Below are positions 48,701 to 64,000 of a stretch of DNA of 64,000 nucleotides, in pieces (position 1 is the stretch's first letter; every line of letters starts with the position of its first letter). Source of the stretch: Haliotis asinina (lineage: Eukaryota; Mollusca; Gastropoda; Lepetellida; Haliotidae); the NCBI RefSeq assembly GCF_037392515.1, contig NC_090290.1, positions 18,861,753 to 18,925,752 on the forward strand, given 5' to 3'. A model generated the notes under the pieces. It was given only the letters and a program-made list of their open reading frames with translations, made no database searches and was not told the origin of the DNA. The position numbers and the translations under genes were made by a program.

Positions 48701-51700
48701 AAGCATGAATCAGGATAACTATAAAATATCAATTTTATTCAAAAACCTACATTTTAAAAAGTTATAATCCTGTCCGGTCGCCACTTGACGTGCCAATCGG
48801 ATCAGCTGTTTCCTGTCACTTCACATATGGTGATTGCTTCCTGTTGTTTCATAGATGCCACGCAAGCGATAGGGGGCCCGATTGCTATTGTTTTGTTGTT
48901 TGCACAAGCACTTTCAAGAAGTGAGTGATTATTGGAGTAGGGGCATTCATTTGTAATATGTCATTATATTCCTTAGCTGAGAGCCACTGTGCAATACCGT
49001 TTAGTTTCCCTTCTCCCTTTTAATTTCATTTTCACATAATTGGAAAATTATTACTATAGATTTCTCAAATAATATCAATGGTTGTCTTTTCCCCAATAAC
49101 AATGGCTTTCTGCTCAGTAACGGGTACAACTGAGGCTAATACCTCCGTTTTTGAAATTCCGTACAAATAACATGTGAGGCGGTGATTCGTTTGATGGCAG
49201 GTATTGTTCAAAAGCTCTGAACATCAACCTTGCCAAGAGTATTTTCCGATTTGTAAGAAGCAATCTTATTGGATAAAAGCTAGTTTCTAATGACGCTTAT
49301 TTGCCACAGTCTGCTATAAGGATCGTGAATGGTCAAAATCAAAACTTTTGCAACAAGCATTTGGTTACTGAAGATCAATTGGGTTCAGTTGTAAATGGGA
49401 CATACAGAATGTGTCTACTGTGTTGTATGGTAGTAGTGTGTCGAGGCAAAGAATGTGGGAACAAGGGCATCTGTATTTTATGGTAAATGTGAATATTTGT
49501 GTTTTCAGTCACTGCCTAGTAACTACAGTAGAAAGCAGATATTCAATAAGAAATCATTCGGGAACTTCCAGCAACCGAAGACCAAGAGATCTGGGATGGT
49601 AAGTGTGATTGGAGTCATCAGTGTAATGAACAACTGTTCTGACCTGACCCATTGCTCAAAGCATTTCTTTAGTGTTTAGGTCCGTTTAGGTTTATATTTT
49701 TCCTTATCCTAACTCATGCTATACTGCATATCTCCTTTCTCCTTTTTGGACACTTGAATCCCTCGTTCCCTGAAGAGAACCTATTATGACTCATCCATGA
49801 GTTGCCTCCCTTTTCCCAAAGTTTAGTTTGCACTTTGAATTGGAGTAAGATCAAGTATAGAAAGAAGACAAATCATTTTACTTTTGTTCTTAGACACATG
49901 TTAGCTGGTGTACAGCTGGTGTACAGCTGGTATGTGTAAATGTTTGTGTAAGACATGGAACAGGGAAATATTGTTGGGTCTGTGAAAGTGACACATTTCG
50001 TGTTTATTCCTCAGTTGAAGCATATGGCCTCAGGTCTGTGTGTGGAGTCAGAAGAAGAGGTGTACAACAAGAAGGCTCTCCTGCGTCTAGCTGTTTGTAG
50101 GTCGACTTCAGAAACAAAGGATCAGGTTAGCAGCTTCACATTAATGATGACATTGATGATTGTGGTTGTGATGGTGTTGTTGTTGTTGGTGGTGATGATG
50201 ATGATGATGATGATGATGTGGTGGTAGTGGTGATTGTGATTGTGGTGGTGGTGGTGATAGCGGTGGTGATGTCATTGGTGATTGTGGTAGTGGTGATGGT
50301 GTTGATGATGATGTCATTGGTGATTGTGGTAGTGGTGGTAGTGTTGATGGTGTTGATTGTGATGTCATTGGTGACTGTGGTGGTAGTGATGATGTGGTTG
50401 ATGTTGATGTCATTGGTGATTGTGGTGGTGGTGGTAGTGTTGATGATGTTGGTGGTGATGTCATTGGTGATTGTGGTGGTAGTGTTGATGGTGTTGATGG
50501 TGATGTCATTGGTGATTGTGGTGGTAGTGTTGATGGTGTTGATAGTGATGTCATTGGTGACTGTGGTGGTAGTGATGATGGTGTTGAAGATAATGTCATT
50601 GGTGATTGTGGTGGTAGTGTTGATGGTGTTGATAGTGATGTCATTGGTGACTGTGGTGGTAGTGATGATGGTGTTGAAGATAATGTCATTGGTGATTGTG
50701 GAGGTAGTGTTGATGTGGTTGATGTTGATGCCATTGGTGATTGTGGTGGTGGTGGTAGTGGTGATGATGTTGGTGGTGATGACATTGGTGATTGTGGTGG
50801 TAGTGTTGATGGTGTTGATGGTGATGTCATTGGTGATTGTGGTGGTAGTGTTGATGGTGTTGATGGTGATGTCATTGGTGATTGTGGTGGTAGTGGTGAT
50901 GGTGTTGATGGTGATGTCATTGGTGATTGTGGTGGTAGTGTTGATGGTGTTGATGGTGATGTCATTGGTGATTGTGTTGGTAGTGATGATGGTGATGTCA
51001 TTGGTGATTGTGGTGGTAGTGGTGATGTGGTTGATGGTGATGTCATTGGTGATTGTGGTGGTAGTGTTGATGTGGTTGATGTGGTTGATGTTGATGTCGA
51101 TGTCATTGGTGATTGTGGTTGTAGTGGTGATGGTGTTGATGGTGATGTCATTGGTTATGGTGGTGGTGGTGGTGATGATGGTGGTTACTTTGGTGATATT
51201 GATCAGTATGTTAATGTTGATAGTAGTGCTGATGTTTGTAATGTATTAATATGGAGGTCCTTACACCACGTACCCTAAAACGGTCATCATCCTCAGGCAG
51301 ATGATGTAGAGTTGGTGTAACAACAACCTACAATAAATACACTACAATTATAGTGGTGATTGAGGTGTTGATGATGATGATGTTGTGTTGATGATGATGA
51401 TGTAGTGGTGATGATGATGTAGTGTTGATGATGATGTGTTGATGATGTAGTGTTGATGATGATGATGTAGTGTTGATGATGATGTAGTATTGATGATGAT
51501 GTAGTGTTGATGATGATGATGTGTTGATGATGATGATGTGTTGATGATGATGTAGTGTTGATGATGTAGTGTTTATGATGATGATGTAGTGTTGATGATG
51601 ATGATGTAGTGTTGATGATGATGATGTGTTGATGATGATGTAGTGTTGATGATGTAGTGTTGATGATGATGATGTAGTGTTGATGATGATGATGATGATG

Positions 51701-53461
51701 TGTTGATGATGTGTTGATGATGATGTAGTGTTGATGATGTAGTGTTGATGATGATGTAGTGTTGATGATGATGATGTAGTGTTGATGATGATGATGTGTT
51801 GATGATGATGATGTAGTGTTGATGTTGTAGTGTTGATGATGATGTAGTGTTGATGGTGATGATGCAGTGTTGATGATGATGATGTGTTGATGATGTAGTG
51901 TTGATGATGATGATGTAGTGTTGATGATGATGTAGTATTGATGATGATGTAGTGTTGATGATGATGATGTGTTGATGATGATGTAGTGTTGATGATGTAG
52001 TGTTGATGATGTAGTGTTGATGATGATGATGTAGTGTTGATGATGATGATGTAGTGTTGATGATGATGATGATGATGATGTGTTGATGATGTGATGATGA
52101 TGTAGTGTTGATGATGTAGTGTTGATGATGTAGTGTTGATGATGTAGTGTTGATGATGATGATGTGTTGATGATGATGATGATGTAGTGTTGATGATGAT
52201 GATGTAGTGTTGATGATGTAGTGTTGATGATGATGATGTAGTGTTGATGATGATGATGTAGTGTTGATGATGATGATGTGTTGATGATGATGATGATGAT
52301 GTAGTGTTGATGATGTAGTGTTGATGATGATGTAGTGTTGATGATGTAGTGTTGATGATGATGATGTAGTGTTGATGATGATGTAGTGTTGATGATGATG
52401 ATGTAGTGTTGATGATGTAGATGTGTTGATGATGATGATGTAGTGTTGATGATGTAGTGTTGATGATGATGATGTAGTGTTGATGATGTAGTGTTGATGG
52501 TGATGATGCAGTGTTGATGATGATGTAGTGTTGATGATGATGAAGTGTTGATGATGATGAAGTGTTGATGATGTAGTATTGATGATGATGTTTTGATGAT
52601 GATGATGATGTGTTGATGATGATGTAGTGTTGATGATGTAGTGTTGATGATGTAGTGTTGATGATGATGATATAGTGTTGATGATGATGATGTAGTATTG
52701 ATGATGATGATGATGTGTTGGTGATGATGTAGTGTTGATGATGTAGTGTTGATGATGATGTAGTGTTGATGATGATGTAGTGTTGATGATGATGTGTTGA
52801 TGTTGATGATGTAGTGTTGATGATGATGATGTAGTGTTGATGATGATGATGTAGTGTTGATGATGATGTGTTGATGATGATGTAGTGTTGATGATGATGC
52901 TGTAGTGTTGATGATGAAGTATGTGACCTTGCTGTGCGTGTTTATAACCTTGTGTCCTGTGTCATACAGATTTGGTTCGAGACTGTGGACAAGGACTTCC
53001 GTCTGGCTAATTTGCTATGTCTTGATGTGGAGGATGGGGGACATGGTGGCGCCATCTATGGACGGATCATGAAATGTGGTGGCTTTTCCTCCCAGCAGTG
53101 GGTATGGAGCAAGCAGGTGAGGGATGATATTGTGTGGATCTGGTTTAAATACTAAATACAGGGTAGGAGACCTTTAAAAGTGGATTGCTTTAGTGGTTCC
53201 TGTCAGTACTCATTGGTCCAAAATAACACTCACTCACACACACACACACAGACACACTCACTCACTCACACACACAGACACTCACTCACTCACTCACTCA
53301 CTCCTTTCTTTTTCTCTCCGTTTCAGTCCGGGAAGACCCAGCTGTACAACCCAGGTAGTGGGAAGTGTTTGTCTGCCACAGGGATAGAACCCCATTCCTT
53401 CCTCAAGCTTGTCATCTGCTCAGATCATCCCTTGCTCAACTTTGATCTCATCACAGAGTAG
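30468..53461 (+). CDS. GALNT11: GALNT11-like polypeptide N-acetylgalactosaminyltransferase, gene 2 (12 coding exons, 591 aa)
   Basis: Paralogue of gene 1 in opposite orientation, same predicted reaction and Golgi location. Exons: 30468-30738, 31282-31363, 32057-32223, 34365-34492, 35132-35376, 36868-36985, 38453-38602, 39565-39696, 49509-49598, 50015-50125, 52970-53116, 53327-53461; total 1776 nt with TAG, all introns GT-AG with the same phases as gene 1. The first in-frame ATG is 30468; the GTG triplets before it are ignored. Residues about 9-25 are the membrane anchor. Motifs: CYINEA (136-141), IDDHSD, DSHCE (222-226), [20 protein letters not shown] (327-331), VGH (353-355); lectin domain about 460-591 with LCLD and QQW. 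It keeps the Cys after DSH, unlike gene 1, but has Ile in CYINEA where CFYNEA is usual. It looks functional. Confidence 0.95.
31099..31245 (+). repeat. repeat A SINE copy in gene 2 intron 1
   Basis: Diverged head with the GGGTACAGTGTG core; its tail lies about 40 bp before exon 2. Confidence 0.75.
31282..31363 (+). CDS. GALNT11: gene 2 exon 2
   Basis: 82 nt encoding [20 protein letters not shown] and IPDTRKPQ, a textbook GALNT HAFN...SDRL...R..PDTR block. Acceptor GTTCAG, donor CA/GTATGT. Confidence 0.95.
31408..31640. repeat. (TCTC)n pyrimidine tract in gene 2 intron 2
   Basis: Nearly pure CT sequence with degenerate units based on TCTCTCTTTCTCC(C/T)(T/G)TG. Open frames across it are compositional. 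Confidence 0.9.
32057..32223 (+). CDS. GALNT11: gene 2 exon 3
   Basis: 167 nt encoding [20 protein letters not shown] and [13 protein letters not shown], the start of the GT-A fold. Acceptor TTTCAG, donor TTG/GTAGGC. Confidence 0.95.
32761..33330 (+). other. decayed coding-like stretch in gene 2 intron 3
   Basis: Short frames read like protein, for example [16 protein letters not shown] at about 32965 and [20 protein letters not shown] at about 33190, interrupted by stops. I do not recognise the family; a dead retrocopy or transposon fragment is possible. Confidence 0.25.
34065..34335. repeat. tandem repeat in gene 2 intron 3
   Basis: About four units of 58-72 bp built on GACCTGTGATTTACAAACAA, AGCAAGTA and a TTCA(A/G)GA segment, ending about 30 bp before exon 4. 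Confidence 0.8.
34365..34492 (+). CDS. GALNT11: gene 2 exon 4
   Basis: 128 nt encoding [20 protein letters not shown] and [17 protein letters not shown]. Acceptor TTGCAG, donor GAG/GTAAGC. Confidence 0.95.
34550..34700 (+). repeat. repeat A SINE copy in gene 2 intron 4
   Basis: Head GGGGTAGCCTGTAGGTTAAAG through to the CACTCA tail. Confidence 0.8.
35132..35376 (+). CDS. GALNT11: gene 2 exon 5: D-x-H metal site
   Basis: 245 nt encoding [20 protein letters not shown] and [18 protein letters not shown]. All family hallmarks of this exon are present. Donor AA/GTACGT. Confidence 0.96.
35430..35672 (+). repeat. repeat B copy in gene 2 intron 5
   Basis: Starts about 55 bp after exon 5; its tail runs into a (TCTG/TGTC)-rich stretch at 35675-35820. 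Confidence 0.8.
36003..36277 (+). repeat. repeat B copy in gene 2 intron 5
   Basis: Near full length with an intact tail. Confidence 0.85.
36620..36727. repeat. short foldback MITE in gene 2 intron 5
   Basis: The ends are inverted copies: GGGTCCTGTTTCACAAAGC with TCTTGTAAACCTAAG at left, and the complementary GCTTACAAGAGCTTTGTAAA at right. Confidence 0.7.
36868..36985 (+). CDS. GALNT11: gene 2 exon 6: Gal/GalNAc-T motif
   Basis: 118 nt encoding [20 protein letters not shown] and [18 protein letters not shown]. Acceptor CTCCAG, donor AGG/GTGAGT. Confidence 0.96.
37165..37545. repeat. dispersed repeat C, copy 2
   Basis: Longer copy in gene 2 intron 6, continuing into GGTCACCCATCCAAGGGCT and a CTTCAACTGATGGTGACCTG block. 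Fragments of the latter recur near 15860-15930. Confidence 0.75.
37556..38205. repeat. 650-bp polypyrimidine region in gene 2 intron 6
   Basis: Almost entirely C and T on the plus strand with no fixed unit (TCCTC, CCACCC and TTCTTCC mixes). The long frames in it come from its composition. Confidence 0.85.
38198..38435 (+). repeat. repeat B copy in gene 2 intron 6
   Basis: Its CACTCACTC tail ends about 20 bp before exon 7, so SINE sequence lies in the acceptor region. Confidence 0.85.
38453..38602 (+). CDS. GALNT11: gene 2 exon 7: third metal ligand
   Basis: 150 nt encoding [33 protein letters not shown] and [14 protein letters not shown]. Donor ATT/GTAAGT. The last 54 nt of the exon plus its donor are the first unit of a tandem array reaching 38895. 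Confidence 0.95.
38549..38895 (+). repeat. tandem duplication of the gene 2 exon 7 end and donor
   Basis: Unit 1 (38549-38657, 109 bp) holds the last 54 nt of exon 7, the donor and the intron start. Units 2 (38658-38762) and 3 (38763-38867) are 105 bp, followed by a partial unit to about 38895. Units 2 and 3 still encode SFTKNS(L/V)RVA...MDDYI but the donor is TTGTGATA instead of TTGTAAGT. Confidence 0.92.
39318..39478 (+). repeat. repeat A SINE copy in gene 2 intron 7
   Basis: Full-length, with an intact B box GGGTTCGATTCCCC. Confidence 0.85.
39565..39696 (+). CDS. GALNT11: gene 2 exon 8
   Basis: 132 nt encoding [20 protein letters not shown] and [20 protein letters not shown] then PEL, the end of the catalytic domain. 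Donor CTG/GTAAGT. Confidence 0.95.
40410..40765. repeat. dispersed repeat D
   Basis: Parts recur at 3165-3315 (CACATAGTCACA, TGCTGCACGTTTCTGTACCC, GCGTATTCATGTGGCCA-like, ACCAACGGATTCGTGGGTTC) and at 21215-21360 (GGCGCT...TTTCTCCCTCGA...ACTGGATG). Class unknown. Confidence 0.65.
40797..41118 (+). repeat. repeat A SINE copy interrupted by about 150 bp
   Basis: Head and B box at 40797-40887 and the tail at 41041-41118 are separated by unrelated sequence with several GGCCCATT motifs. The GCCCATT/GCCTATT junctions suggest an insertion. Confidence 0.65.
41172..41440 (+). repeat. repeat B: second dispersed SINE-like family (representative copy)
   Basis: Consensus elements in order: GAAGGTCCCGGGGTAGAA, CTTCAGCAACCCATGCTTG, GTCGTAAGAGGCGACTAACG, CTGACTTGGTTGACACATGT, TTGTTGATCACTGGATTGTC, TGGTCCAGACT, ATTATTTACAGACCGCCGC, AGCTGGAATATTGCTGAGTG, CGGCGTAAAACTAAACTCAC. 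Partial copies not listed separately: 15020-15120 (-), 18565-18640 (-), 24340-24545 (-), 29925-30030 (+), 31735-31990 (+). Confidence 0.85.
41756..48716 (+). mobile_element. DIRS-like tyrosine-recombinase retrotransposon fossil (outer element)
   Basis: Long inverted terminal repeats (about 41756-41927 and 48549-48716) share GCTTATTGCTTATC, CCCTGGCGAAGGTAGTGGAA and CACCCATGTGTAGCCTCCCC. Parts in order: a Cys-rich gag-like start (about 42115-42460), an RNase H region with [15 protein letters not shown] (about 44770-44950) and a tyrosine-recombinase region with [10 protein letters not shown] (about 45775) that a second element interrupts. It is broken in many places and looks old. It lies in gene 2 intron 8. 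Confidence 0.8.
45916..48425 (+). mobile_element. second DIRS-like fossil nested in the first
   Basis: Inverted terminal repeats of about 180 bp (45916-46097 and 48212-48395) begin CTTACCTTACCATAGGTCTT. A further inverted copy of that end at about 48059-48090 faces 48128-48150 and fits the internal complementary region of DIRS elements. It has a Cys/His-rich gag-like part (about 46600-46826) and a recombinase region with [10 protein letters not shown] (about 47190-47650). It is broken but younger than its host element, since it interrupts it and its ends are still very similar. Confidence 0.8.
49509..49598 (+). CDS. GALNT11: gene 2 exon 9: linker
   Basis: 90 nt, phase 0/0, encoding [20 protein letters not shown] and [10 protein letters not shown], a basic linker between the domains. 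It follows a 9.8-kb intron that contains the nested DIRS fossils. Acceptor TTTTCAG, donor ATG/GTAAGT. Confidence 0.88.
50015..50125 (+). CDS. GALNT11: gene 2 exon 10: lectin alpha repeat
   Basis: 111 nt encoding [20 protein letters not shown] and [17 protein letters not shown]. Acceptor CCTCAG, donor CAG/GTTAGC. Confidence 0.92.
50160..51180. repeat. 45-bp minisatellite in gene 2 intron 10
   Basis: About 20 units, typical unit built on GATGTCATTGGTGATTGTGG and TGGTAGTGTTGATGGTGTTG. Because 45 is divisible by 3 and the unit lacks stops, frames of about 300 codons stay open on both strands. It starts about 35 bp after exon 10. Confidence 0.9.
51350..52925. repeat. GAT-rich minisatellite (GATGATGATGTAGTGTT units)
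   Basis: About 1.6 kb of units of 12-21 bp made of TGTTGATGATG(ATG)nTAG, ending about 45 bp before exon 11. Every unit carries TAG, so it is not coding. Confidence 0.92.
52970..53116 (+). CDS. GALNT11: gene 2 exon 11: lectin beta repeat
   Basis: 147 nt encoding [20 protein letters not shown] and [16 protein letters not shown]. It has the C-L-D and Q-x-W motifs of a carbohydrate-binding ricin repeat. Acceptor ATACAG, donor CAG/GTGAGG, immediately after the minisatellite intron. Confidence 0.95.
53327..53461 (+). CDS. GALNT11: gene 2 exon 12: lectin gamma repeat and stop
   Basis: 135 nt including TAG, encoding [20 protein letters not shown] and ending NFDLITE. An ATTAAA at 53576-53581 is a possible, unproven polyadenylation signal. 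Confidence 0.93.
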   Translation, partial: SGKTQLYNPGSGKCLSATGIEPHSFLKLVICSDHPLLNFDLITE

Positions 53462-59800: not shown

Positions 59801-59980
59801 TACTACTGTAATTTGTATGAAACTACACCCTGTGCATGAACACAGTCTTTACATATTGCCCTAAAGGCATCAAAATGTCTTATGTGGAGTTGCAACCAGG
59901 CGTTTCTATGGTCAGGCCTTTCGTCCAGTTTAACCATGTTTTGACAGATCTTTGGTTTCTCAGCCTTAAACTGTCTGGTA

Positions 59981-61274
59981 CGAGGGTTGGCTGAAAAGTT
60001 CTCAGCCTGAGTGTTTTTTCCCCACCAGGTAGAGACAGGTGTTTGCCACCAATGAGGACAATCATTTAGTGAATCATAGACACAAGAACTACAAACGTAC
60101 TAATAGTTTTATCTCAACTACAGCTCTTTTGGTAAACCTACCCTCTGAAATCATCAGAAATGGACAAAACTGAATACAGGGCAGTCATCAAGTACTTGCA
60201 AAAGAAAGGGATGTCCCCAACACAGATACATGCTGACATGGTCTCCACTCTAGGGGATGATGCTCCTTCATTTTCAAAAGTAAAGAAGTGGGCTGCAGAA
60301 TTTAAGCATGGCAGACAAAGCCTTGATGATGACCCTGGCTCAGGAAGGCCTTCAACAGCAACCACTCCAGAAAACATCACGCGAGTGCTCGATATGTTGA
60401 TGGATGATCAACGATTGACTACTCGACATATTGCTAGTGTAGTGGGCATCTCTCATGAGAGGGTTGAGCATATTATCACCAACGAATTAGGAATGACGAA
60501 AGTTTCTGCAAGATGGGTGCCAAAGCTCTTGACAGCAGAACAGAAACGTGTCAGGTTCCAGACGTCCCTTGACAATTTGCGTCGTTTTGAAGCAGATCCC
60601 GATGATTTTGTGGCACGATTTGTAACCATGGATGAGACCTGGATACATCACTTTCAACCAGAAACAAAACTACAGTCAAAACAGTGGAAGCATCCTGATT
60701 CACCAGCTCCGAAGAAAGCCAAGTCTGTTCCTTCAGCTGGAAAGGTGATGGCATCAGTCTTTTGGGATTCCAGGGGTATTCTGCTCATTGATTATCTTGA
60801 AGAAGGTCAAACTATCAACGGCAGATACTATGCTGATCTACTGAACCAGTTGCGAGAAGCAATCAAAGCCAAACGACGAGGGATGATCGCTAAAGGTGTC
60901 CTCTTCCACCAAGACAATGCGCCTGTTCACAAATCGGTGGTGGCCATGTCAACAATCCGCGATTGTGGCTTTGAACTCATTGACCATCCTCCTTATTCAC
61001 CTGATTTGGCTCCTTCTGACTTCCACCTGTTCCCCAAAATGAAAAAGGAACTCGCCGGTCGCCATTTTGCAAGTAATGATGACGTCATTTCCGCTGTGAC
61101 TGATTTTTTTAGGGTAGCTGAAGAAGATTTCTTCCTGACCGGGATTCGGGCCTTGCAGCATCGCTGGCAAAAGTGTGTGAACTTGGAAGGGGACTATGTA
61201 GAAAAATAAATTACAAACGTGGACTTTGTAACTTTTTTTCACAACGAGGCTTAGAACTTTTCAGCCAACCCTCG
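59981..61274 (+). mobile_element. mariner transposon, apparently complete (1294 bp)
   Basis: TA duplications lie at 59979-59980 and 61275-61276. The terminal inverted repeats start CGAGGGTTGGCTGAAAAGTT and match for about 27 of 28 bases. The single gene between them is uninterrupted. Near-identical ends and an intact frame suggest recent activity compared with the other elements here. Confidence 0.95.
60160..61209 (+). CDS. mariner transposase (349 aa, DD34D)
   Basis: A cut-and-paste transposase that binds the element's inverted repeats and inserts at TA. The N-terminal part (about 1-115) carries two helix-turn-helix regions with DDDPGSGRPSTAT between them. RWVPKLL (118-124) matches the mariner WVPHEL motif. 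The catalytic triad is D158 (VTMDETW), D252 (FHQDNAP) and D287 (YSPDLAPSDFHLF), with 34 residues between the last two. The length is normal for the family and there are no internal stops. It starts at the ATG 179 bp inside the left end and stops 65 bp before the right end. The key residues are present, so it may be active. Confidence 0.96.
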   Translation: MDKTEYRAVIKYLQKKGMSPTQIHADMVSTLGDDAPSFSKVKKWAAEFKHGRQSLDDDPGSGRPSTATTPENITRVLDMLMDDQRLTTRHIASVVGISHERVEHIITNELGMTKVSARWVPKLLTAEQKRVRFQTSLDNLRRFEADPDDFVARFVTMDETWIHHFQPETKLQSKQWKHPDSPAPKKAKSVPSAGKVMASVFWDSRGILLIDYLEEGQTINGRYYADLLNQLREAIKAKRRGMIAKGVLFHQDNAPVHKSVVAMSTIRDCGFELIDHPPYSPDLAPSDFHLFPKMKKELAGRHFASNDDVISAVTDFFRVAEEDFFLTGIRALQHRWQKCVNLEGDYVEK

Positions 61275-61539
61275 TAGCATCAGTTGGCAGAGTTTTCTTC
61301 CCACTTCAATCTGAAATAGTAAGGGCAGTGGGGTTGCCCCATGGTTAGAGTGTTCGCTCTTCTCGGAAGACCTGGTTTGATACCCCACATGGCGGCTGAA
61401 GTGTGTCGTCTGCTTCATTCTGGAAGCCTGTTTGAAACAGAAGTGTATCATCAGCTTGAAGGAGGAAGCCATTGATGTGTTGTCTGCTTAAAGCAAGAAA
61501 CCTACTGTACAACAATTAGTAGGTCATTTTGTCATCTGG

Positions 61540-62599: not shown

Positions 62600-63020
62600 A
62601 ATAAAGTATGCTCAACTCTTCAACATCATCACATATGCTTCACCCTCAAATAACATGAAGTATGCTTTACCCTTTAATAGAACACTTTACAATTTTACAG
62701 CATGAACTATGTCTTACCCTTTAACATCATGAAGTCTGTTTTACCCATAAACATTATGAAGTCTGGTTTACCTTTCAACATCATATAGTATGCTCTACTT
62801 TAATCGCTGCAAAGTATGCTTTACTCTTTAACATCATGGAGTATACTTTTCCCTTAAACAAAATGAAGTATGTTTCACCCTTTAACATCATGGAGTATAC
62901 TTTCCCCTCAAACAAAATGAAGTATGATTCACCTTTTAACATCATGAAGCATGCTTTACTTTCATGAAGTATCCATTATCCTTAAACATCACATCGTGGT
63001 AGTGTGCTTTTTAGCCTTTT
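62600..63020. repeat. degenerate tandem array, unit about 31 bp
   Basis: About 13 units related to CCTTTAACATCATGAAGTA followed by TGCTTTAC. It ends about 40 bp from the stop codon of the zinc-finger frame, so it may be part of that gene's 3'UTR. Confidence 0.8.
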
Positions 63021-63059: not shown

Positions 63060-64000
63060 CTACTGACATTCCTCCATCACATCCTGTGGTTCCTCCTTTA
63101 CTTTAACTTGGTACAGATCCACAATACAACTCTCCTGTTGGGTGTTCTCTGGACAAGTCTCTTCCTTCTTGTGTTCACTGTGATGCATGTATCGCTCAAA
63201 CTCTTCTCCTGCACAATCTCTTCTTCGTCCCCACATGCCCACAATGTCTTCCGGTATTATATTAACCTCTTTGTCACGCCCTTCCTGTCTTATTGCCTTT
63301 TCAATGTTTTCAGAAATATTCATATCAGTCATACTTTCTTCATCTTCTGAGTCTCTGATTTGATTCTCATTCTCTATAATGAGTCCACTATGATTAATGG
63401 TCTTTTCAGTCATACTAACACACAGCTCTCTCTGTCTGTTGATCTTATCTCGGTGCACCCTCATGTGGGCATTGAGGTTCCCTGAGGTCGTGCATCCTCT
63501 GTCACAGAACTGACATCGGTATGGCCTTTCTCCAGTGTGGGTTCGGATATGAATCCTTAGTGATGACGCTTCTGCGAAGCATTTAGCACAGATGTCGCAC
63601 ATATAGGGTCTCTCATCGGAGTGACAGATAAGGTGGCGTTTTAGAGTGCTTGATCTGGCAAACCCTCTAAAACACTGGTCACATTTGAATGGCCTCTCTC
63701 CTGTATGCACACGAATATGTTCTTGAACCAGCACAAAGTGTGCAAATGACTTCTGACAATGCTTGCACTGATATTTGCGGTCACCTTCTATGTTAGTCCA
63801 ATGTTCTGAAGGCTCGTGATATTTTTTGGGGCGCCCTATCTTGTGGCGGTCTTCAATTCCCCCTGTTTCTTTTAGACGTGTTGCAAACCTACAAATAACC
63901 GAGGTTGCAACATTCATGATTTTGGAGATCTGTCTTTGAGATGTACCATCTTGAAGAAGTGACCTGATTTTCTCTCTTTTTTCCCTTGACAGTTTCCTCA
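63060..64000 (-). CDS. C2H2 zinc-finger protein with Tc1-type HTH N-terminus, partial
   Basis: The frame is open from the TAG at 63060-63062 to the window edge: 312 residues seen, start outside. The ATG at 63917 is internal, because the 27 codons before it continue the domain. Visible residues about 3-60 (LSREKREKIRSLLQDGTSQR, KETGGIEDRHKIGRPKK) look like the paired-type helix-turn-helix of Tc1 transposases. Four C2H2 fingers follow at about 76-98, 104-126, 132-154 and 160-182 with TGERPF/SDERPY/TGERPY linkers; finger 4 lacks the usual core Phe. The tail is acidic and ends in VKVKEEPQDV, where VKEE fits a SUMO site. Probably a nuclear DNA-binding protein; targets unknown. Confidence 0.85.
   Translation of the reverse strand, partial: RKLSREKREKIRSLLQDGTSQRQISKIMNVATSVICRFATRLKETGGIEDRHKIGRPKKYHEPSEHWTNIEGDRKYQCKHCQKSFAHFVLVQEHIRVHTGERPFKCDQCFRGFARSSTLKRHLICHSDERPYMCDICAKCFAEASSLRIHIRTHTGERPYRCQFCDRGCTTSGNLNAHMRVHRDKINRQRELCVSMTEKTINHSGLIIENENQIRDSEDEESMTDMNISENIEKAIRQEGRDKEVNIIPEDIVGMWGRRRDCAGEEFERYMHHSEHKKEETCPENTQQESCIVDLYQVKVKEEPQDVMEECQ

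Follow-up and report, generated by a model that had tools for sequence, protein, structure and literature searches.

Can the DNA-binding end of a transposase be taken up by a zinc-finger gene and kept there as part of a new host protein? The question is raised by one end of a 64,000-nucleotide stretch of the Haliotis asinina genome (contig NC_090290.1; the whole stretch is called the window here, and it corresponds to C11:18861753-18925752 in the 1.14-Gb genome). The genome's own content points to an abalone or close kin: the Pfam model Egg_lysin matched at six places on C14, and one exon matched sperm lysin in the PDB at 1.6e-10, lysins of this kind being abalone proteins. A sequence-only reading had noticed there one uninterrupted frame in which four C2H2 zinc fingers follow a Tc1-like helix-turn-helix (HTH), and had proposed that such a capture can make a new regulator. 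The frame was found as described, at 63060-63998 of the minus strand. The analysis below indicates that it is probably part of a host-transposase fusion gene for a predicted nuclear DNA-binding regulator, in which both DNA-binding parts have been kept by selection.

A helix-turn-helix and four zinc fingers in one frame

Within the window the frame has 312 residues, ends in a stop codon at 63060-63062 and is open at the window end. The earlier proposal to follow it past position 64000 was carried out on the longer locus L001, where the frame measures 351 residues from stop to stop and 348 from the first ATG, the first 36 codons lying at and beyond the window end. An in-frame TAA is found 9 nt upstream of the ATG. 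The parts of the gene are as follows.

63060..63998, minus strand: fusion gene coding sequence as far as it lies in the window (the final 312 of 348 codons, plus stop), from the open reading frame call and genome extension
63822..63998, minus strand: Tc1/IS630-type HTH and GRPKK linker, residues 37-95 of 348, from domain and genome searches
63777..63821, minus strand: junction of the transposase-type part with finger 1, YHEPSEHWTNIEGDR, from alignment
63453..63776, minus strand: four C2H2 zinc fingers with their linkers, from Pfam
63693..63776: finger 1, helix residues -1, 2, 3 and 6 HVLE
63609..63692: finger 2, same helix residues RSTR
63525..63608: finger 3, same helix residues ESSI
63453..63524: finger 4, same helix residues TGNA
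63063..63452, minus strand: acidic tail of 130 residues (33 D/E, 18 K/R)
63087..63101, minus strand: VKEEP, similar to the SUMO consensus, starting at the 13th residue from the protein end

The finger region was unambiguous, with Pfam matches in the window frame to zf-H2C2_2 (E 3.7e-22) and zf-C2H2 (E 6e-19) and a C2H2 score of 67.8 bits over four stretches against a cut-off of 25.2. Tandem fingers and TGER-type linkers are shared with C2H2 zinc-finger proteins in general; the present gene differs from these in the transposase-type HTH that stands in front, and a Pfam scan found no KRAB domain. KRAB zinc-finger proteins are repressors of transposons.

Transposase character of the helix-turn-helix

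A search showing that the N-terminus is not related to transposases had been named beforehand as a result that would overturn the sequence-only reading, and the searches did not give that result. The isolated 67-residue HTH passed the Pfam model HTH_38 (28.5 against 27 bits, E 1.3e-6), and an NCBIfam IS630 transposase model matched residues 8-66 at E 7.8e-6 and 25.5 bits, the cut-off of 100 being set for whole transposases. The HTH of the related copies on C2 (see below) matched the same model at E 1.1e-7, also far under the whole-transposase cut-off. GRP followed by K or R, the linker after the HTH, was kept in five of the six distinct members of the family, L003 having RRPKK. The GRPKK linker of the window HTH is presumably AT-hook-like.

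A search of the same genome with the C2-type HTH returned, among the best 150 of 6197 candidates, eight family or broken copies from C2 and 142 other matches, at E ≤ 5.2e-8. Among the best 150 of 3621 candidates for the window HTH there were nine family members and 141 others (1.1e-6 to 0.0099), and the ranking began with the three C11 copies, followed by the six C2 copies and then the transposases. Forty-three of the other HTH matches were examined as loci (42 places, since L020 and L056 are the identical place). Thirteen of the longer transposase-type frames were scanned with Pfam, and all 13 matched the second Tc1 helix-turn-helix, HTH_Tnp_Tc3_2, 11 of them at or above the cut-off, and seven of the 13 matched the nuclease domain DDE_3. 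The fusion has the first HTH and the GRPR linker in common with these transposases, but neither the second Tc1 HTH nor a DDE nuclease was found when the window frame was scanned with Pfam, and by these domains the protein does not qualify as a Tc1-like transposase.

The likeness ends about where one transposase domain gives way to the next. The C2 HTHs were 48-50% identical to the best same-genome Tc1-like transposases over 60 residues, and they begin at the initiator methionine (MPRL), as do many of those transposases; the window HTH was less close to them. Matches between C2 HTHs and transposases stopped near the GRPR linker or a few residues beyond it, roughly the place at which the transposases start their second HTH (residue 66-68 in L031, L033 and L037). 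A host-transposase fusion gene is one whose open frame encodes a host domain together with a domain derived from a transposase, and this is the arrangement found here.

A duplicated family on C11 and C2

A protein search of the genome found nine open copies of the fusion: the window gene, two neighbors on C11 (18.990 and 18.994 Mb) and six on C2, the latter in two clusters at about 49.70-49.73 and 53.03-53.06 Mb. Each C2 cluster also contains one broken copy, making two broken copies in all. The nine open frames are 344-480 residues long, and in every one of them the HTH, the linker and the fingers share a single frame. These numbers, nine open and two broken, are minimum values, since the scoring covered the best 127 of 3751 and the best 150 of 1389 candidates. 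Among the best 150 of 1389, fusion members had E ≤ 1.7e-38 and the matches that followed, from 3.7e-30, covered the fingers only, apart from the second piece of one broken copy. Since the same domain order occurs at nine genomic places, the fusion is not due to chance.

The same C2 cluster, of three open copies and one broken copy, is present twice (C2:49.697-49.728 and 53.034-53.064 Mb), 3.3 Mb apart. Three of the four pairs compared were 99.6-99.8% identical, flanks included, and the broken pair was 98.5% identical with gaps. The doubled cluster may be a recent segmental duplication or an unmerged haplotype, and the number of distinct genes is therefore six to nine.

Several details besides the domain order are shared by the C11 and C2 groups. 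The tryptophan after the linker, at the junction, was invariant in all six distinct members in an alignment that misplaces the tail of L002. The helix residues of finger 4 (TGNA) were constant in all six, and finger 1 was the most variable finger. The possible SUMO site pointed out by the sequence-only reading is VKEEP at 63087-63101. VKxEP or IKxEP was present in the tails of all nine open copies, a recurrence among relatives that is looked for in a SUMO substrate, and the frequency of such a motif in shuffled tails was 0.004-0.032 for each of the six distinct tails that contain it. In five of the six it starts 12-15 residues from the protein end; in L003 it lies further inward, ahead of an extension. 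The frame at L003:1342-2784 overruns the tail motif by about 70 residues, hydrophobic in character, where the other members end, which may reflect a lost stop codon or an unseen intron.

A phylogenetic tree of the HTH (36 rows, 68 columns) placed the six fusion rows on one side of a branch and the 30 transposase rows, representing 39 of the 43 loci after four short matches were dropped, on the other. Support for this branch was 77/94, which was not starred, and 80% of 200 bootstrap trees agreed with it; the row for C11b has an odd residue composition. A single joining is favored, since both groups share the fingers, the invariant tryptophan that follows the linker, and the motif in the tail.

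Selection on both DNA-binding parts

Within the C11 and C2 groups, the proportion of nonsynonymous differences (pN) was lower than that of synonymous differences (pS) in the HTH for all six pairs, with pN 0.18-0.22 and pS 0.64-0.73 among C11 pairs, where synonymous sites are near saturation, and pN 0.07-0.15 and pS 0.23-0.50 among C2 pairs. Proportions were used because NG86 synonymous distances were often saturated and YN00 was unusable for many pairs. In 2000 codon bootstraps the order was never reversed in five of the pairs and was reversed 22 times in the youngest. The fingers gave the same result (pN < pS in six of six pairs; no reversals in five and one in the other). In the tail, no constraint was detected between C11a and C2c (589 of 2000 bootstraps) and weak constraint was found between C11a and C11c (76 of 2000).

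The HTH and the fingers are thus both under purifying selection within each group. If the duplications came after the fusion, as the common domain order implies, then it is within the fused protein that the HTH has been retained. Retention as a host gene, and not as a mobile repeat, is also what is seen in the number and placement of the copies: eleven as a lower bound, on two chromosomes, as clustered neighbors, with pN below pS.

Divergence between L002 and L003 (C11:18.990-18.996 Mb) was uneven along the gene, with a synonymous difference of 73% in the HTH and 34% in the fingers, among which finger 3 had the least (16%). The low finger divergence suggests gene conversion within the fingers.

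Alternative explanations

Several observations weigh against a fusion gene of single origin whose two DNA-binding parts are both in use. Over the full 312-residue protein, the Pfam matches to HTH_29 (9.2e-6) and HTH_38 (2e-5) were both below their gathering scores. In a PDB search with a profile of the six HTHs, the PAI subdomain of Sleeping Beauty was found at 7e-4 (2m8e) and 0.005 (6urs), behind entries named CAP REPEAT, uncharacterised protein, T32-15-1, F4132-2 and gamma-delta resolvase, so that the profile gives weak support. A search with a single HTH gave CAP REPEAT, F4132-2 and T32-15-1 as its best matches, gamma-delta resolvase and other natural DNA-binding HTHs reaching no better than E 0.5. 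Structure models from single sequences were weak, with a predicted local distance difference test (pLDDT) value of 71.5 for the HTH, in which the second and third helices merged, and 40.6 for the full protein. The modest branch support of 77/94 weakens a single origin, and the C2 and C11 HTHs are only 35-42% identical to each other, less than the 48-50% between C2 HTHs and transposases. The 142 matches outside the family in the C2-HTH search included none of the C11 copies among the best 150 of 6197.

The last three of these points would fit two independent captures, one giving rise to the C11 group and the other to the C2 group. We consider this rather improbable: the fingers, the junction tryptophan, the finger 4 residues and the tail motif are common to both groups, so two captures would need to have struck one and the same finger gene at nearly identical positions, and the search with the window HTH put all six C2 copies above every transposase. 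A more serious competitor, still clearly less probable than the reading favored here, is that the captured HTH has ceased to read DNA and serves in dimerization or another protein contact, with the fingers alone providing specificity. The C11 HTHs are indeed further from transposases than those of C2, with best matches at 23-26 as opposed to 27-30 of 58 columns. A precedent exists in the nematode F-box A2 proteins, where, according to PMC12062965, the captured mariner HTH was not seen in gel shifts to bind the ancestral repeats, nor was a clear role in regulation found, which is a further point against the favored reading. Against the loss of DNA reading stand the basic linker GRP[KR] in five of the six distinct members and the purifying selection on the HTH.

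It is quite unlikely that alternative splicing parts the HTH from the fingers, with the joined protein seldom or never made. Acceptor-like sequences were found upstream of the ATG in all three C11 members, at 2, 2 and 107 nt, and upstream exons may therefore exist. The stricter setting gave C11a, at 107 nt, and C11b, at 2 nt; the looser setting added C11c (2 nt) and C2a (96 nt), L002 being matched at the looser setting only, and left C2b and C2c without a match. The background over 3450 places was 1.0% (stricter) and 6.0% (looser) within 22 nt and 3.9% and 24.9% within 110 nt, and because of this rate no acceptor is claimed for C2. Such splicing is at odds with the single frame of HTH, linker and fingers in all nine open copies and with the selection on both parts after duplication.

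An origin of the HTH from a paired box (PAX) or another old host HTH, with no transposase piece at all, is very improbable. The isolated HTH had a weak PAX score (E 8.1e-4), below the cut-off (19.8 bits, and 16.5 for the full protein, against 22), a cut-off that discriminates little in that many transposase frames in this genome pass it, and PAX-type chains appeared in the PDB profile search, the best at 0.0056. The genome's ten top-scoring PAX loci (71-246 bits with the PAX model) were, however, by eye in neither list of the best 150 HTH matches, the linker context DRPRSGRPR is like that of transposases, and the IS630 model matched; a PAX origin was not supported on these grounds. There is equally little to recommend a recent chance joining or an assembly artefact without function. 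The two broken copies on C2 and the possibility that the two C2 clusters are an unmerged haplotype point that way, but the divergence is old (C11 and C2 HTHs 35-42% identical), the frames are open and selection is purifying.

Other features of the window

A complete-looking mariner lies at 59981-61274 on the plus strand, with terminal inverted repeats some 28 nt long (ends set by hand) and TA on both sides (59979-59980 and 61275-61276). Its frame at 60136-61209 encodes Transposase_1 and a Mos1-type HTH, and a similar copy starts at L049:2626. This mariner was considered as the donor of the fusion HTH and was not supported in that role, as its own HTH is of the Mos1 type, HTH_48. A tandem array of 27 bp in 13.5 copies (62604-62959) lies about 100 nt downstream of the fusion-gene stop codon. 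Long TG-rich tandem arrays at 50163-52921 coincide with a GC skew of 0.80 at 50-52 kb.

Comparison with known fusions and possible function

Fusions of this general kind are known from vertebrates. The review PMC8616336 gives 106 host-transposase fusion genes from 94 events in tetrapods and names KRAB, SCAN, zinc finger and SET among the host partners, and zinc-finger partners are thus already on record. The tetrapod fusions (Cosby et al. 2021, including KRABINER, as cited in PMC8616336) likewise join a transposase DNA-binding domain to a host domain, with Tc1/mariner elements as common donors, and the review describes capture through alternative splicing. The present case differs in coming from a mollusc and in forming a duplicated family, and may differ too in its layout, in which the HTH precedes a C2H2 array within a single frame. 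The nematode F-box A2 family is similar in that a multigene family took up an N-terminal Tc1/mariner HTH and was then duplicated, but its partner is an F-box and its HTH is of the Mos1 type. Among the 10 million eukaryotic proteins screened in PMC12062965, Tc1/mariner HTH with F-box forms the third largest set, and the words 'C2H2' and 'mollus' are absent from the main text. The main text of PMC10547256, on zinc-finger genes and transposons across animals, contains none of the words transposase, HTH or helix-turn-helix. PMC10027918 describes lineage-specific transcription factors derived from transposable elements in molluscs, and the factors named in the passages used here do not include a Tc1-type HTH joined to C2H2 fingers. 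The statement that no named family has this domain order held as far as titles and abstract openings go, none being found in the literature searches. A scan of viral contigs for relatives gave six pattern matches, none of them confirmed.

How the fusion gene may have arisen and how its product may work can be outlined from these comparisons. The first HTH (the PAI-type subdomain) and the GRPR linker of a Tc1-like transposase would have been joined to a four-finger C2H2 array, with loss of the second transposase HTH and the nuclease, in a single event that was followed by duplication into the C11 and C2 groups. The fusion protein would enter the nucleus, where the HTH and the fingers may bind DNA jointly as a composite reader in which finger 4 is fixed and fingers 1 and 2 and the HTH differ among members, and sumoylation of the tail might recruit repressors. 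The earlier suggestion of a new regulator made by HTH capture gained from the evidence for capture, for duplication and for purifying selection on both parts; its further suggestion, that the protein may recognize the transposon's own ends, is touched only indirectly by a comparison of the recognition helix. Over the 13 residues that we took as this helix, the best matches to 27 transposase rows (the other three rows of the tree were cut or shifted and left out) were 6, 6 and 7 residues for C11 (6 for the window gene) and 8, 7 and 8 for C2, a small difference. A role in transposon control is put forward only as a speculative and rather doubtful extension, in which the HTH and fingers would bind Tc1-like ends, the SUMO-carrying tail would silence them, and tandem copies would track different Tc1 lineages, the C2 copies being nearer to present elements and the C11 copies retargeted to host sites.

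Capture of transposase domains as a source of transcription factors has been documented for tetrapods, and it appears to have occurred here in a mollusc, where a duplicated and selected gene family was apparently made in this way. The event joined two DNA-binding modules, so that what was gained would be a possible composite reader and not a new effector. With more than 140 transposase-type HTH matches scored in the same genome, whether the captured domain still reads its old target beside the fingers is a testable question.
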